Part shown: positions 7,641 through 28,495 of the stretch, one piece after another
Position numbering within the stretch: the first letter of the stretch is position 1
Layout of the letters: each line of letters opens with the position of its first letter
From: Todiramphus chloris collaris
Lineage: Eukaryota; Chordata; Aves; Coraciiformes; Alcedinidae
DNA: 64,000 nucleotides
Direction: 5' to 3'
NCBI GenBank assembly: GCA_025345505.1
Contig: JANVCC010000073.1
Coordinates: 40,657 to 104,656 of the forward strand
Translations under genes and position numbers: made by a program
Notes under the pieces: model-generated
The model's database searches: none
Told to the model about the DNA's origin: nothing
What the model saw: the letters and a program-made list of their open reading frames with translations, nothing else

Positions 7641-8232
7641 GTGTGTGTGTGCGGGCGGACGGACACGCACGTTGGTGGGGGGTTTTACAGACGCACACAG
7701 AGACGCGCGCTCTAGTGTGTGCGTACAGACGGACGGGCACGCAGACATGCGTGCCGGTGTGAGTGCATGACAGACACACAGACGGGCATAGGGACAGACA
7801 CATGGACGAGAGCATAGGCGTGGACGTACAGACACAGGGTCACGGCCACGCACACACACGGGTAATGCGTGCACACGTGCACACACCTACCTGCATGCAC
7901 ACACGTGTGTACACACCTGTGCATATGTGCACTTGCACTTCCATGTGTACACAGTACACGTACACACATGGCACATACAGGCACAGACATACACACTCAG
8001 AGTTGGGAATACGTGCACATGCATATATATGTACAGCCACATGTATACACACATATACATATACACACGCACATCTATACATGCATAGACATACATGCAC
8101 ACAGACACACGCATACACTTCCTATGCACATATATAACCACATGCACACACACACACACATGTAATGCACACATAGGCACAGGCATGTATAGGCACTGGC
8201 AGATGTGTGCCTACACACAGATGCTCACACAC
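7641..8232. repeat. AC/GT-rich alternating purine-pyrimidine low-complexity tract
   Basis: About 600 bp of imperfect CA/CACG/CATA dinucleotide-type sequence lies between PHKA1 and the LEAP2-like gene. It has scattered pure (AC)n runs, for example near 8146-8160. Alternating purine-pyrimidine sequence can adopt Z-DNA. No coding signal is seen; the open frames here encode only His/Thr/Val/Cys periodicity. Confidence 0.85.
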
Positions 8233-8480
8233 ACAGTGCTCTGGCAGCATGTCTGTGCAGTGGGCTCCTGAGAACATCAGTGCCCTCACCCTGGGGACCC
8301 CTTTGGGCAGCTGGGGGCCAAGTGGGTGCTATGGTGGACTCAGCAGCCAGCAGGCAAGAGGCAGGAGCCCATGGGTGCCACATGCCACCCTGGGCACATG
8401 TGGCCCTGGCACCCATGAGTCCTGTCTTCGCAGAGGGGGCAGGGGCAGTGAGTGACCGAACATGGGCAGGGGGCAGTGGG
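8233..8480. other. Intergenic sequence between the AC-rich tract and the LEAP2-like 3' end
   Basis: I see no gene, repeat family or conserved motif in this short stretch. It lies just beyond the polyadenylation signal of the LEAP2-like gene. Confidence 0.5.
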
Positions 8481-8486
8481 TTTATT
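8481..8486 (-). terminator. Polyadenylation signal of the LEAP2-like gene
   Basis: AATAAA on the minus strand, 180 bp downstream of the reconstructed LEAP2-like stop codon. Its position supports a real short 3' UTR for that gene. Confidence 0.6.
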
Positions 8487-8665: not shown

Positions 8666-9514
8666 TCAGCACTCGTACTGTGGTGGGGCACAGCGTCCAG
8701 CCCTGTGGGGCAGAGCAGGCCTGAGTACTGTGCCAGGGGCCCTGGAAGGGCAGCATCACCCACCCAGGGGCCCTTGAAGGGCAGCATCCCCCACCCAGGG
8801 GCACCTGGGGTGGGGGGAAAAGCTGCGTTCTGCTGGGGCTCAGCCATGGAGGGTGGCTAGGTTGTGGGCACGAGGCCTGGGGGACACCAGGACTGAGGGA
8901 CACCGGGACTGGGGTGCATGGGAGGTCTCTGGGCTGAGAGGAGGGTGTTGAGGGTGTCTCAGGCTGGAGAACTCTCAAAGCTGAGGAGGATGGTGGGTTC
9001 AGGGTACTTGTGAGGCCCCATGGTTAAGGATGTTGGGGTACATGGGGTGTTCCCAGGGCTGGAGATACTCTGGGGATTGAGATATTTGCAGGGTCCCAGG
9101 GACACAGGCTAGGCTGGGCAGGGGGTGACACAGGGGATGGGCAGGGGTCCCCACTCACCTGCAGGCCCTGGTGACGCACTCGAGGCTGTGACGGCAGTGG
9201 GCACCCAGGGGTCTGCTCCCCACCATCCTCCAGAAGGGTGTCATGCGGGGCAGCCGGGAGGACACATGCCCCTCTGTCCCCTGGGGCTCCTGCAGCACCC
9301 AGAGGGGTGGATGGGTTGAGGAGGGTGGTGCTAAGCCCCCCAGCCCCCAATGCCCAACCCCCATGCCTGGACCCACCTGGAGGGAGCTGGGGAGAAGCAA
9401 GAGGAGGGAGAGGAGCAGTGCCAGGCTGGTGGTGGTGCCCGGGGGGGCAGGGAGAGCCCCACTGGCTCTGCCATCTCGACCAGTGCCTGGCGCAACAGGG
9501 GCTGCGGCTGCCAT
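8666..9514 (-). CDS. LEAP2-like secreted cysteine-rich peptide precursor, three exons
   Basis: Exons on the minus strand: 9377-9514, 9159-9289, 8666-8702, with GTGGGT and GTGAGT donors, CAG acceptors, and phases 0 and 2. They encode 101 residues. Residues 30-46 form a leucine-rich signal core after an unusually long 29-residue N-region. A propeptide ends in RLPR, a furin-type site, and the mature 40-residue peptide starts MTPFWRMVGSRPLGAHC. Its cysteine spacing, C-x5-C-x4-C-x4-C, equals that of LEAP2 (liver-expressed antimicrobial peptide 2), and so does the length. LEAP2 is a liver and gut hormone that antagonises the ghrelin receptor through its N-terminus, and it has weak antimicrobial activity. 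This copy ends with an extra fifth cysteine. The gene lies between PHKA1 and BMP15, whereas canonical LEAP2 lies beside GDF9. Function is inferred from family; the gene model is seen directly. Confidence 0.85.
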
Positions 9515-9600
9515 GGTGCCACTGACTCCGGCTGTCTGGTGCCTCCGCAGGACACTGCTCCTCCCGGGTCACAGCGCTGCACAAATATTTGAGTGGCCCT
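9515..9600 (-). promoter_or_regulatory. Putative proximal promoter of the LEAP2-like gene
   Basis: The minus strand carries an A/T-rich CAAATATTTG element at about 9581-9591, roughly 70 bp upstream of the ATG, in otherwise GC-rich sequence. It could serve as a weak TATA element. This is inference from position only. Confidence 0.3.
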
Positions 9601-11582
9601 AGGTGGCAGGACAGCCCCTTGTCACCCCCCCACACATGCACACCCTGGCTGGGGGCTGCCAGCGCCTCTGCAGGGTGTTCACAGGGCACACATGAGTCAC
9701 CCAGTGCCTGGACATCACTGTCTGCCTCCAGCTACAGCCCACGGCAGGGTTCCTGGATGGCAGCTGCACTCCACAGCTGGGTGAGCTCCACCCCTGCTGC
9801 CCCTGTGCTTTGCACAGCCCAGATTTGCCCCAGTGCTGCTACAGCATATGTGGAAGGTCATCTCCTCCCTGCCACCCTGGAGGATAAGGAGTGCAAGGTG
9901 GCAGTGCCCCCTTGGAATAGTGTTACACCCCATGATCTCCTGCAGATGGGCAGCAGGTGGGTTACTGAGTGGGGACCCAGTGGAGACAGAGCAAAGCCCC
10001 ACCGTGGGGTCTAGGGAGGCAGACGTGCACTGGCTGTCCTGAGAGAGAGCAAGTGGCCAGTGCAGCCCGCAGCGCAGGCAACAGCCTCACAGGCAAGAAG
10101 CCTGCCAGAGCGCAGGGTGGGGGCATGTCCAAAAAGCCACAGCTCCTGGTGCTTCCCACAGAGCTGGCACCGATGGGATGCCAGGCTGTGCCTGAAGAGT
10201 TTGCATGGCTCTGGGACCCACAAGAAAAGCCATCCACTGAGGTGGCTCAGGCCAAGAGGCCCTGCACCTGCCACTTGGCTTTGTCCTGGGAGCCCCAGCG
10301 CTGACACGGGCACAGTGCCAGGGTCATCTGGGGACAGCAGCTCTTTCCCTGAACAGGAAAGGCTCTTTCCCTGTGACAGATCCTACCCCACTATTAGTTC
10401 AGAGAAGACCACGCTGCTGGGACAGCCCCCTGGCACCTGGGGATAACCTGGGAAAGGGTCCCACCCAGTGGCCACAAGACCCCAGTGGCCATCAGACCCC
10501 TCCAGCATGGTGTTTATGAGGACAGAGGGCGGGGACAGACAAAACCCAGTGATGATCCATCTCTGGGCATCCAGCAGCTCCAAGAGGTACCCACAGCAAG
10601 CTGGGGTGCAGGTCTTTGCCACGGGCAGCACCAAGCACTGGCATCTAGAGGTGCCCAGAGCTGGGAGTGTGCCCAGCTCCCGTGCCTTTCATCATCACTT
10701 GCCTGGATGAGTCAACAGTGCATGCTTAATGATTGACAAGGGAAAATCTTCCCCCTAGGGTCAGGTCTGCAAGCTTCCAAAAAAGAAGACATTACCTTTG
10801 CCACAGCCTCCTGGCAGAGGTGACTAAGGTGGAGCAAGCTGGGGACAAGGGGCAGAAGATGAGCCCAGGTGGCTCCATGCTCTGACAGGATAAAGGACAA
10901 CTTTTGGTGCTGGTGGGCAAGGGAACAGTGGGGGCTGTCAGTACCCTGCCCCACAGCAAATGTCTGCCGGCAGGAAGGAGTTCTGAAACATCCCTATGGA
11001 GCTTGGACCAGCAATAACAGATGGGGCTAGGGGCTAAGCAAGACATGAGCCACTGACAAGAGCCACGAGTTGAGGATGCAGTGGAAGTACCCAGCTAGCA
11101 GTGCCACCAAGCACTGGGGACAATAATTATAGCTGCTACCCAGGTCTCACTGCTCAGTGGAGGGGAACTTTGCCCCAGCTTTGTAAATACAGGTCATTGT
11201 ACTCAGCAACAGGCAGGTTTGCCTGCATTGGCTCCCATCGTCCCCAGGGAGCTGCCCTGTAGAGAGGGATGTTGTATAAGAGGGATGTGGGGCATCTCTT
11301 GTCCCCAGCCCCTCTGAGGGAACTGCCTGCAGCTACATCTGGAGCCCTTGCCCCAGGGTAGGTCTACGCTCCAGGGGAAGCTTATTCTCCCAGCTCCTGC
11401 TTGAACCATCTGGGATTTACCCCTGCACATAGCAGGGAGCATCCCCTACCCCCTTATTCCTGTGCAAGCAAAAGGGTGGCTGCACAGCAACACAATCTAC
11501 AACAGCCTGTCCTGGGCATGCACACTACACACTGGGGACAGAGCAAGAACAAGCCAAGATGGTCTCTAGCAAAATCCATCAA
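9601..11582. other. Intergenic region between the LEAP2-like gene and BMP15
   Basis: About 2 kb without a recognisable exon or repeat family on either strand. I looked for UQCRQ, which sits between LEAP2 and GDF9 on human 5q31, and saw no trace. Open frames here lack splice-consistent extensions and recognisable motifs. Confidence 0.6.
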
Positions 11583-12475: not shown

Positions 12476-14104
12476 TTACCGGCAGGTGCAGGACTCCGCG
12501 ATCATGTTCTCATACTCCTTGTAGAGGATGCCACCGTCACGCTCAATCATAAGGACACTGATGGGGCTGTAGCGGTAGGGAACACAGGAGGGCCAGGGCA
12601 CATTGGCATCCACCAGCTGATGGACAAAGCTCTGCACCACGGCGTGGTTGGGCGCATGGTAGTCATAGCGGAGCAGGTGGGGACAGGCACCCTTGCAGTA
12701 GCGTGGGTTGTAGCGGTGGGGAGCAATGATCCAGTGGTCCCAGCCCAGTTGGGCGAAGCTGACAGGAAAGGATCGCAAGGAGCAGTCGCTCTTCTCTCCT
12801 TCCTGCTCCCGCAGGTATCCAGGCAGGTCATGGGCCAGCGTTCCTGTGTCACGACGGTGCCGGTGGGGCTCTGTCACTGGAAGTGCCAACCCAGCCTGGG
12901 TGTCATTGAGGTAGAGGAGGAGGAAGGGGTGGCTGGGGGCCACTGGAGCATCACGGCCACCCATCCGACCGGCTCGCACACAGATGTGCTGCAGCGCCAG
13001 GCTCCCTGCACTGCCGTTCCCCTGCACCAGGTAAGGGGTGACATCTGCTTCAGCCCAGCCATGGTGCGGGTGGGTGGCAGGGCTGAGCAGCACCCCAGGT
13101 GCCTCACTGGTGGCTGCCAGCTCCAGGGTGCAGAGGAGGTGACCGTGGGCCAGTGTCAAGCTAGGCAGGTAGACCACAGTGGCTCGGAGGAGGTGCTCGG
13201 TCTCAGACTGGCCCTCCAGGTGGTAGGTGAGTGGCTGCACATACCAGCGACCTGTGGGGATGCAGCAGTCAGTGCCCCCTTAGTACAGCACAGCCTTTGC
13301 CCAGAGTGCTACCACATCCCCACACAATGCAGTGGAGCCCATGGCATCACAAGCCTCAAAGCTCATGACCACCAGGAGCCTCAGCAAACAGTAGCCATTG
13401 CCATCAACAACACCTTGCCAGCAGGGTGAAGGGCAAAGAGTGGCTAGGACAGTTACTACCCTCTTCAGGAATGGGCTGGAGCATGGCGAACCCCTCATCG
13501 TCTCCAAGGTAGACGCCACCGGGCACCACTGGCCTGGCACAGCATCAGGCGCAATGGGGAGAAGGGCACACAGGGCCATTGATGCTCTTGCCCATCTCAC
13601 CCCTGGGGCAGGGAGAGCATGGGCTCCCTGCCAAGGGGAAGCCCGCAGGGCACAGGATGTGCCAGCCCTGGTTGGGACACTGTAAGGAGGGAGAAGGAAG
13701 CAGGCAGTGACACCCCAGGGTTCAAGCCCACCCTGCCACCTCCGCTAAACCCCCATACTACCCTTGGTGCCCACCTGCTCCTTACCTGCCCAGGGTGGAC
13801 CACCGTGGGAACTGGCCTGGACCAGGCGGACAGTGTTGGTGCCCAGGGTGCGACCATGGCGAGGCCGCCCTTCACGGTCGGCAGCATGCCTGTACAGGTT
13901 CAGCATGTAGCGCAGGGGCTGCCCGCTTGCCAACCCTGCTTGCCAGCCCTGGCTGCCTGGTGCCCGCACTTGCAGGGCCTGCAGGAGTGGCAGAGGGGGG
14001 ATGGCAGGCAAGGAGCCAGGGGGCAACGAGGTCTGGTCTGCAGCCCAGGAAAGGGGCAGAGCAAGGAGGAGGAGGAGGCTGGTGAGGGGATGGAGCCAAG
14101 CCAT
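12476..14104 (-). CDS. BMP15: Bone morphogenetic protein 15 precursor (BMP15)
   Basis: BMP15 is an oocyte-secreted TGF-beta ligand that acts with its paralogue GDF9 on granulosa cells. It has two exons, as usual for the family: 13786-14104 (signal peptide and first part of the propeptide) and 12476-13251, joined in phase 1 by a 534-bp intron. The 364-residue precursor starts MAWLHPLTSLLLLLALPLSW. A furin site RHRR precedes the mature domain of about 125 residues. The mature domain has six cysteines, including CKGAC and the terminal CTCR; it lacks the cysteine used for the interchain disulfide in most TGF-beta ligands, as is normal for BMP15 and GDF9. Diagnostic motifs are WDHWIIAPHRYNPRYCKG, PISVLMIERDGGILYKEYE and MIAESCTCR. 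Human BMP15 has 392 residues. The position beside SHROOM4 matches human. The intron holds a 52-bp copy of SHROOM4 sequence. Confidence 0.97.
13473..13524 (+). pseudogene. 52-bp copy of the SHROOM4 exon 1/intron 1 junction inside the BMP15 intron
   Basis: This segment matches 17561-17612 at 49 of 52 bases. It covers the codons for [12 protein letters not shown], the AAG|GTAGAC donor, and 16 bases of intron. Homology stops abruptly on both sides with no target-site duplication that I can see. It is on the plus strand, antisense to BMP15 and in the same orientation as SHROOM4, about 4.1 kb upstream of the original. Because intron sequence was copied too, it arose from DNA, not mRNA. A good acceptor (TTACTACCCTCTTCAG) ends at 13468, so 13469-13508 could be a 40-nt exon with the correct phase for SHROOM4 exon 2. 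Expression is unknown. Confidence 0.85.
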
Positions 14105-27300: not shown

Positions 27301-28495
27301 CCATTGCCAGGTGTTTTGCAGGGACCAGGGGCATTGCTGGATGCTTGCAGGGTCTGGGGCATCAAGGGAGCTAGGGGCATTGCCAGATGCTCATGGGGAC
27401 CAGGGACATCACTGGGTGCTTGAAGGGACCAGAGGCATTTCTGCATGCTTGCAGGAGCTGCTGGGACATTGACAGATGCCTGTGAGGACCAAGGGCATTG
27501 TCGGGTGCTTGCAGGACCTGGGAGTGTCACTGGATGCTTACAGGGACCAAGGGCATCACCAGGTTCTCATGGGAACCAGGGGCATTGCTTGGTGCTTGCA
27601 GGAACTGGGACATTCTCTGGTGCTTGCAGGGACTGGAGGCATCGCTGGATGCTCATGGGAACTGGGGGCATTGCTGTATGCTCGCGGGGTCCAAGACCGA
27701 CAGATGCTCTCAGGGACTGGGGACATTGCTGATAGCTCATGGGAACCAGGAGCATCACCTGATGCTTCTGCTCTATGGGACCCTGTATAGCATGGCACCC
27801 CTGCGCTTGTGTGCCAGTCTCCTGGTCCCACCAGGGAGTGGCCCCACTTGCCCCTGACTCCTTCCCTCTGTCAGCTGCAGCTTATCGAGAGCCTGAGTCG
27901 TAAGCTGGCGGTGCTGCGGGAGGCACAGCGTGGACTGCAGGAGGACATCAGCGCCAATGGGGCACTGGGCGAGGACGTGGCCACCCGCCTGCAAGCCCTC
28001 TGCACTCCAGGGGAGTTTGACAAGTACCGCCTCTTCGTGGGCGACCTGGACAAGGTGGTCAACCTCCTGCTGTCCCTCTCAGGGCGGCTGGCCCGGGTGG
28101 AGAGTGCCCTGGGCAGCCTGGGGCCGCATGCCTCTGCTGAGGACAAGGTGGGCATGGGGCAGGGGGGCACCCGCAGGGCATCAGGGTGTGGGGCCCCCTG
28201 CCAATGCTCCCTGTCTTGCCCACAGGTGGCCCTGCGGGAGAAGCAGCGGCTGCTGGTGGCACAGCTGGAGGACGCCAAGGAGCTGAAGGAGCACGTGGGG
28301 CGGCGGGAAGAGGCGGTGGGCGCCATGGTGGCACGATACCTTCCCACTGAGCACCTCCAGGACTACCAGCACTTTGTCAAGATGAAGTCGGCCCTCATCG
28401 CTGAGCAGCGGGAGCTGGAGGAGAAGATCAAGCTAGGCCAGGAGCAGCTCCGTTGCCTGCGCGAGAGCCTCGGCCAGGCCCCCAAGGGCTGCTAG
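17471..28495 (+). CDS. SHROOM4: Shroom family member 4 (SHROOM4), actin/ROCK scaffold
   Basis: Shroom proteins place Rho kinase and myosin II on F-actin. Ten coding exons: 17471-17596, 21063-21214, 22355-22486, 23016-24996, 25215-25276, 25711-26310, 26562-26984, 27068-27254, 27875-28147, 28226-28495. Total 1,401 residues (human about 1,490). Exons 1-2 encode the PDZ domain (residues about 8-91; [20 protein letters not shown]). Exon 4 carries ASD1 near residue 490 ([19 protein letters not shown]). Exons 8-10 give ASD2 from about residue 1,220, the ROCK-binding coiled-coil module ([20 protein letters not shown] and [20 protein letters not shown]). The start follows the family's N-terminus. Uncertain points: the exon 4 acceptor lacks a good pyrimidine tract, and the exon 6/7 intron is GC-AG. 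All phases close. Human Glu-rich repeats before ASD2 are reduced to a short acidic run. Confidence 0.93.
25481..25497. repeat. Poly-G homopolymer in SHROOM4 intron 5
   Basis: Seventeen consecutive G on the plus strand. It is a likely site of sequencing or assembly length error and has no coding consequence. Confidence 0.9.
27280..27785. repeat. Minisatellite of about 30-bp units in SHROOM4 intron 8
   Basis: Roughly 16-17 diverged copies of a 28-30 bp unit of the form GGGCATTGCTGGATGCTTGC followed by AGGGACCAG fill most of the intron between the exon ending at 27254 and the ASD2 exon at 27875. The unit length keeps several frames open, which explains repetitive open frames here. They are intronic. 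Confidence 0.88.

Follow-up and report, generated by a model that had tools for sequence, protein, structure and literature searches.

The peptide LEAP2 naturally blocks the ghrelin receptor GHSR, and the reviews consulted treat it as a single gene in mammals and birds. According to one of these, residues 1-14 of the mature peptide hold the GHSR interaction, with residues 1-8 as key determinants and residues 1-12 required for full binding (PMC11722547). An antimicrobial effect of LEAP-2 requires concentrations far above physiological ones, according to a 2025 review (PMC11767564). The same review counts a single LEAP-2 in mammals and three in teleosts, and its account of birds covers the chicken gene. 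Fish are on record as carrying several LEAP2 genes per genome, as in teleost LEAP-2A, -2B, and -2C and the sturgeon LEAP2 isoforms (PMC11767564, PMC11722547).

The window, a stretch of 64,000 nucleotides from Todiramphus chloris collaris (assembly GCA_025345505.1, contig JANVCC010000073.1, here C54, positions 40,657 to 104,656), carries a LEAP2 gene beside a TGF-beta gene of the GDF9/BMP15 type. This gene, designated LEAP2B, is a real, intact, and conserved second LEAP2 gene. It lies on the minus strand at 9514-8666, as do all features listed for it here, and encodes by hand splicing a LEAP-2 precursor of 101 residues in three exons, a count that refers to coding exons read from genomic DNA. 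An earlier note on this DNA had claimed exons of 138, 131, and 37 bp with correct splice sites, and joining them indeed yields one open 306-nt frame that ends in TGA, with donors GTGGGT and GTGAGT and AG acceptors. Coding exon 1 (9377-9514; 46 codons, phase 0 at its end) provides the start codon, an unusually long N-region, and a leucine-rich, hydrophobic segment that is a putative signal peptide, as read by eye; homologous N-termini occur in relatives. Intron 1 (9290-9376, 87 bp, GT-AG) is in frame and stop-free over 29 codons. Coding exon 2 (9159-9289, phase 2 at its end) contains the end of the propeptide with the RLPR site and the start of the mature peptide at 9244, and it is followed by intron 2 (8703-9158, 456 bp, GT-AG). 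Coding exon 3 (8666-8702, 37 bp), whose first residue is split across the intron, supplies the C-terminus ...AGRCAPPQYEC, including a fifth cysteine, and the TGA; bird and turtle relatives end in this C-terminus as well. Both the RLPR site and the 40-residue mature peptide starting with MTPFWR, which the same note had read from the DNA, are present in the translation, and 180 nt after the stop codon the poly(A) signal AATAAA (8481-8486) begins at 8486.

LEAP-2 is the sole Pfam family matched by LEAP2B. The precursor matches PF07359 at 1.2e-15 and the 40-residue mature peptide at 1.2e-12, while the score of 57.6 bits stands against a curated cut-off of 27. Among solved structures, a search at E up to 1 matched human LEAP2 (2l1q) alone, at 2.6e-11; the alignment covers mature residues 1-34, and its four cysteines are spaced identically. 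The similarity to LEAP2 is far beyond chance. Canonical LEAP2, as represented by the human peptide and the copy on contig C94 of the same genome, shares with LEAP2B the Pfam family, an RxxR site, the MTPFWR start, a 40-residue mature peptide, and the spacing of four cysteines, C-5-C-4-C-4-C. The exact LEAP2 cysteine spacing claimed earlier therefore holds for these four, but the description was incomplete, as a fifth cysteine is present at the C-terminus. Further differences from canonical LEAP2 are M7, G9, H16, and L21 in place of G7, S9, S16, and S21, and a longer region before the hydrophobic signal segment.

LEAP2B is proposed with high confidence to be a second LEAP2, most likely a working one, that constitutes the BMP15-linked ohnologue of the family and would give rise to a secreted, RLPR-cleaved, GHSR-blocking, and membrane-active peptide. 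We infer expression, secretion, cleavage, and antimicrobial activity. By homology, the precursor is most likely secreted, and a furin-type protease would cut after RLPR to free the 40-residue peptide. Two disulfides would form among the four canonical cysteines, with the pairing taken from human LEAP2. The free hydrophobic MTPFWR N-terminus would block GHSR as LEAP2 does, and the net charge of about +4 (6 R, 2 E, 2 H) would also give membrane activity against bacteria; antimicrobial activity in vitro is likely for any such cationic peptide. The leftover C-terminal cysteine of birds and turtles may allow the peptide to dimerize covalently or to become attached to some other thiol.

GHSR antagonism by LEAP2B is given about even chances on the present analysis. 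The GHSR-contacting N-terminus had been described as kept. Residues 1-6 do match LEAP2, and V8 and P12 are likewise retained; however, residue 7 is changed from G to M, which falls within the key 1-8 binding segment, and residues 9-10 from SL to GS. These changes at residues 7, 9, and 10, together with the new C-terminus, lend weight to the reading that the peptide is real but no longer part of the ghrelin axis, serving chiefly as an antimicrobial or acting through a different receptor, as does the killing of bacteria by LEAP-2A, -2B, and -2C of trout and grass carp reported in PMC9986249. This departure is a credible possibility, if the less probable one, since all eight aligned type B precursors (type B being the LEAP2B side of the family) have MTPFWR and P12 unchanged, and since coelacanth LEAP2 antagonizes its own GHSR and human LEAP2 is equally efficient on the fish receptor, according to a review (PMC11722547).

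The position of LEAP2B within the family becomes apparent from the rest of the genome. A LEAP-2 profile search that covered the whole 1.17-Gb assembly returned, at E up to 0.001, two matches: one on contig C94 at 3568848 (94 bits) and the window gene (47.2 bits). The C94 gene lies about 8 kb from GDF9, with UQCRQ and an AFF-type gene also nearby, and upon hand splicing it yields a 77-residue canonical precursor. Its separate presence supports the suggestion that the window gene is an additional family member and rules out the option that this is the genome's sole LEAP2, relocated. A comparison with the GDF9-side copy, which the earlier note had recommended, reveals equal intron positions and phases (0, then 2), three coding exons, and a last coding exon of 37 bp in both genes, while intron lengths are 414 + 813 in the C94 gene vs 87 + 456 in LEAP2B. 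The two mature peptides are identical at 21 of 39 aligned residues.

While canonical LEAP2 neighbors GDF9, LEAP2B neighbors a TGF-beta gene whose C-terminal part (12479-13279, minus strand; PF00019, 4.5e-31) is found about 3 kb upstream on the same strand. Its ORF is 37% identical to the GDF9-like ORF on C94 (E 2.5e-43), and the solved structures closest to it are those of GDF5. We take these two genes to be BMP15 (window) and GDF9 (C94), names that were recognized from sequence and are supported by the neighbors. The third member of the block is a SHROOM gene with its ASD2 domain at 27878-28471 on the plus strand (PF08687, 1.5e-71), by its position presumably SHROOM4. On C94 the order is SHROOM ASD2 (-, 3515-3518 kb), the GDF9-type ORF (+, 3559-3560 kb), UQCRQ (+, 3563 kb), LEAP2 (+, 3568-3570 kb), and the AFF-type gene (-, 3589-3604 kb). 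Read on its minus strand, the window has SHROOM (-, 28.5-27.9 kb), BMP15 (+, 13.3-12.5 kb), and LEAP2B (+, 9.5-8.7 kb), such that the order and relative orientation of SHROOM, GDF9/BMP15, and LEAP2 agree between the two contigs. SHROOM matches occur at four places in the genome and AFF matches likewise, with one of each on C94 and on C54. The AFF match of C54 is about 8.7-8.9 Mb from LEAP2B, leaving a tight block of three genes, and no second UQCRQ match was obtained in the genome search. The linkage of LEAP2B with BMP15 was seen in this one genome.

The matching order and orientation of the block, together with the common intron positions and phases, point to an ancient block duplication, which most likely belongs to the early vertebrate whole-genome duplications; LEAP2B is thus most likely the BMP15-linked ohnologue of the GDF9-linked LEAP2. 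ORFs of at least 25 residues were compared by blastp between 90 kb of C94, a part that does not reach the SHROOM stretch, and 134 kb of C54. Among the best 40 lines, one is the GDF9/BMP15 pair and another joins the two LEAP2 genes, while 38 resemble interspersed repeats on inspection by eye and were set aside. Ten further ORFs were scanned against families and nine matched, SHROOM ASD2 included. Above the family cut-offs are two cyclin matches, phosphorylase kinase, ribosomal S4e, and the accessory domain of diacylglycerol kinase, and below them are histone deacetylase, FAM176, and a glutathione-transferase-type domain. This gene content presumably corresponds to the neighborhood of the human Xp11.22 and Xq13 genes (RPS4X, HDAC8, PHKA1, SHROOM4, BMP15, DGKK, CCNB3).

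An unrooted tree of mature peptides (40 columns) separates the family into two types. Its 38 rows are 31 selected from 156 database proteins, the two from the present genome, and five from publications, and they divide with 100/100 support into 18 type A rows, mammals included, and the other 20. Amphibians and amniotes are represented on each side of this split: the mustache toad LEAP2 and a frog peptide (P0156) group with A, while the spiny frog LEAP2 is placed outside A, with B and fish. Between the 18 A and 17 B rows, six alignment columns (8, 11, 18, 23, 37, 43) have no residue in common, as counted over the commonest residues of each column. Three fish peptides from the literature (Acrossocheilus LEAP2A, Amphiprion, and Boleophthalmus) do not show the commonest A residues at columns 8, 12, 18, 21, 23, and 37 and lack the A-type G7, S16, D19, S21, and L35; at column 11, a single one of them shares the S of type A. 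Like most B rows, all three carry K11 (column 13) and Y16 (column 18). They differ from LEAP2B in starting with MTPLWR rather than MTPFWR and in having no fifth cysteine. The best tree puts the fish rows outside type A, but the tree that joins them to A is worse by 0.05 log units (AU p 0.421), so a firm placement of fish LEAP2 with type B failed. The B-like residues could be the ancestral state, and a role of fish LEAP2A as the counterpart of LEAP2B is, at this AU p value, a lead suggested by the peptides, not a result.

It is improbable that LEAP2 was instead copied beside BMP15 more recently, within tetrapods, with a coincidental likeness of the neighbors. An unrooted tree and the AU p value for the fish rows with type A make a post-fish split possible on sequence alone, but the copy adjoins both a GDF9 paralogue and a paralogous SHROOM in matching order and orientation, a place where a lone copy would have had to land by chance. 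Moreover, with amphibians and amniotes on both sides of the tree, the two types must, if the tree is correct, have separated no later than in the ancestor that these groups share. For the ancient ohnologue, a loss of the BMP15-side LEAP2 in mammals is presumed from the single mammalian LEAP-2 of the 2025 review and from the named type B matches, among which there are no mammals.

Searching with the LEAP2B protein at E up to 1 gave 21 proteins, all of which recurred among the 36 that an eight-sequence profile found at E up to 0.01 from the best 8000 candidates scored. As the earlier note had proposed to search birds, turtles, and crocodilians, it is of relevance that open-frame relatives are found in many birds, in turtles, and in an alligator: owls, golden eagle, crane, parrots, ostrich, emu, kiwi, tinamou, turtles, and Chinese alligator. 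More distant profile matches are from two caecilians, two newts, the bearded dragon, and the frog noted above. Both LEAP2 types are recorded in Grus americana, Aquila chrysaetos, Dromaius novaehollandiae, Nothoprocta perdicaria, and Amazona collaria in addition to the present genome. No chicken, duck, or passerine protein is among the named rows of the 36 profile matches, which come from a predicted-protein collection; gene loss in these birds is not claimed, because absence from such a collection does not demonstrate it. The guess that the gene is possibly unannotated was wrong for the relatives. Sequence identifies entries already labelled LEAP2-like (Grus, Struthio, Dromaius, Alligator) or LEAP2 (Aquila, Emydura, Carettochelys) as the same gene, although they bear names alone, without linkage, paralogy, or function as far as is visible.

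The mature peptide of LEAP2B is identical at 39 of 40 residues to those of Bubo, Aquila, and Grus each, with 44-47 of 61 identities in the prepro part. Across ten complete relatives, the mature part retains 31-39 of 40 residues (27 of 40 in the alligator) and the prepro part 19-47 of 41-61. Because the mature part matches more closely than the prepro part across relatives, conservation is concentrated on the secreted peptide. A decaying, non-expressed copy that is open by chance is very unlikely, for even though a budgerigar protein has no cleavage-site arginine and many database models of the relatives are partial, the frame is intact with correct splice sites, the mature peptide is conserved to the extent given above and better than its own propeptide, and RxxR is retained in 10 of the 10 complete relatives compared. 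The budgerigar protein (Melopsittacus undulatus, P0021) reads RLPL at the RLPR site and begins its mature part with MTPIWR rather than MTPFWR, deviations that may reflect gene decay in that lineage or a poor gene model.

The fifth cysteine is a recurrent trait of the bird and turtle proteins. Those database proteins with a complete third exon have a terminal cysteine in 10 of 10 cases (nine species), in addition to the window peptide; 19 other entries that end at exon 2, or whose end is mispredicted (P0016, P0019, P0152), were left out of this count. A C-terminal serine is present instead in the one crocodilian, two caecilians, two newts, and the bearded dragon. Since five cysteines cannot all pair in one chain, the peptide is expected to dimerize, to form a thiol adduct, or to keep a free thiol. 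Five cysteines are also observed in two type A sequences, those of the softshell turtle Pelodiscus sinensis (P0107) and the mustache toad Leptobrachium liui, with the fifth at other positions. An odd cysteine is therefore not unique to type B, and what is special to the type B residue is its conserved end position.

A more far-reaching reading combines these features. It holds that two LEAP2 genes have existed since early jawed vertebrates, that mammals retained the GDF9-linked one alone, and that the BMP15-linked one persists in birds, turtles, crocodilians, amphibians, and fish, being the gene studied as "LEAP2" in several fish and the spiny frog, with the bird and turtle peptide acting as a second GHSR ligand of birds in the form of a covalent dimer or thiol-attached species formed via the C-terminal cysteine. 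As a whole this reading is unlikely. If true, much of the fish-to-mammal comparison of LEAP2 would set paralogues, not orthologues, side by side, and LEAP2B raises a checkable doubt over which vertebrate LEAP2 genes truly correspond to human LEAP2.

For birds and reptiles, the open-licence texts and listings consulted yielded no account of a second LEAP2 or of one linked to BMP15; the two papers there that mention both LEAP2 and BMP15 are, by their listings, unrelated. A study of ghrelin loss in passerines treats LEAP2 as one gene (PMC11919490). What is already known is that databases name relatives LEAP2 or LEAP2-like; what is new is the identity of the gene as the BMP15-side partner of LEAP2 and the conserved extra cysteine. 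Birds may thus possess two LEAP2 peptides vs one in mammals, and, as the receptor-binding end is nearly unchanged, appetite studies in birds and reptiles that measure canonical LEAP2 alone may miss part of the system. The question of a second peptide is worth testing because chickens eat less under ghrelin, while true passerines are reported to lack the ghrelin gene (PMC12950399 and PMC11919490).

Several minor observations concern the surroundings of the gene and the assembly. A search for the MTPFWR codon pattern with a CGN arginine led to two places that hold no LEAP2 gene: at L001 the sequence is unrelated after six codons, and L002 (C618:1659466-1662482) is inside a 3.4-Mb contig that is bacterial-looking at the one 3-kb place read, with dense frames that resemble by eye histidine-biosynthesis and hslV genes. 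Contig C618 is probably a contaminant in the bird assembly. The equivalent of LEAP2B intron 1 is retained in eight database proteins (P0004-P0009, P0012, and P0143), a count biased by the fact that such models are found because the frame is open; its retention would merely lengthen the propeptide. The 5′ flank of LEAP2B (9515-9640, minus strand, boundaries approximate) resembles upstream sequence that is read as protein in an eagle gene model (P0011) and in P0143. By a count made by eye, one of its frames agrees with P0143 in 28 of 32 conceptually translated residues; this frame is out of phase with the start codon in the window. The flank contains the A/T-rich CAAATATTTGTG, a possible core promoter or liver-factor site of TATA- or FOXA-like character. 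Just downstream of LEAP2B, a long degenerate GT/CA-rich repeat stretch occupies 7645-8240 and comprises 12 overlapping copies of a 40-nt unit at an identity of at least 60%.
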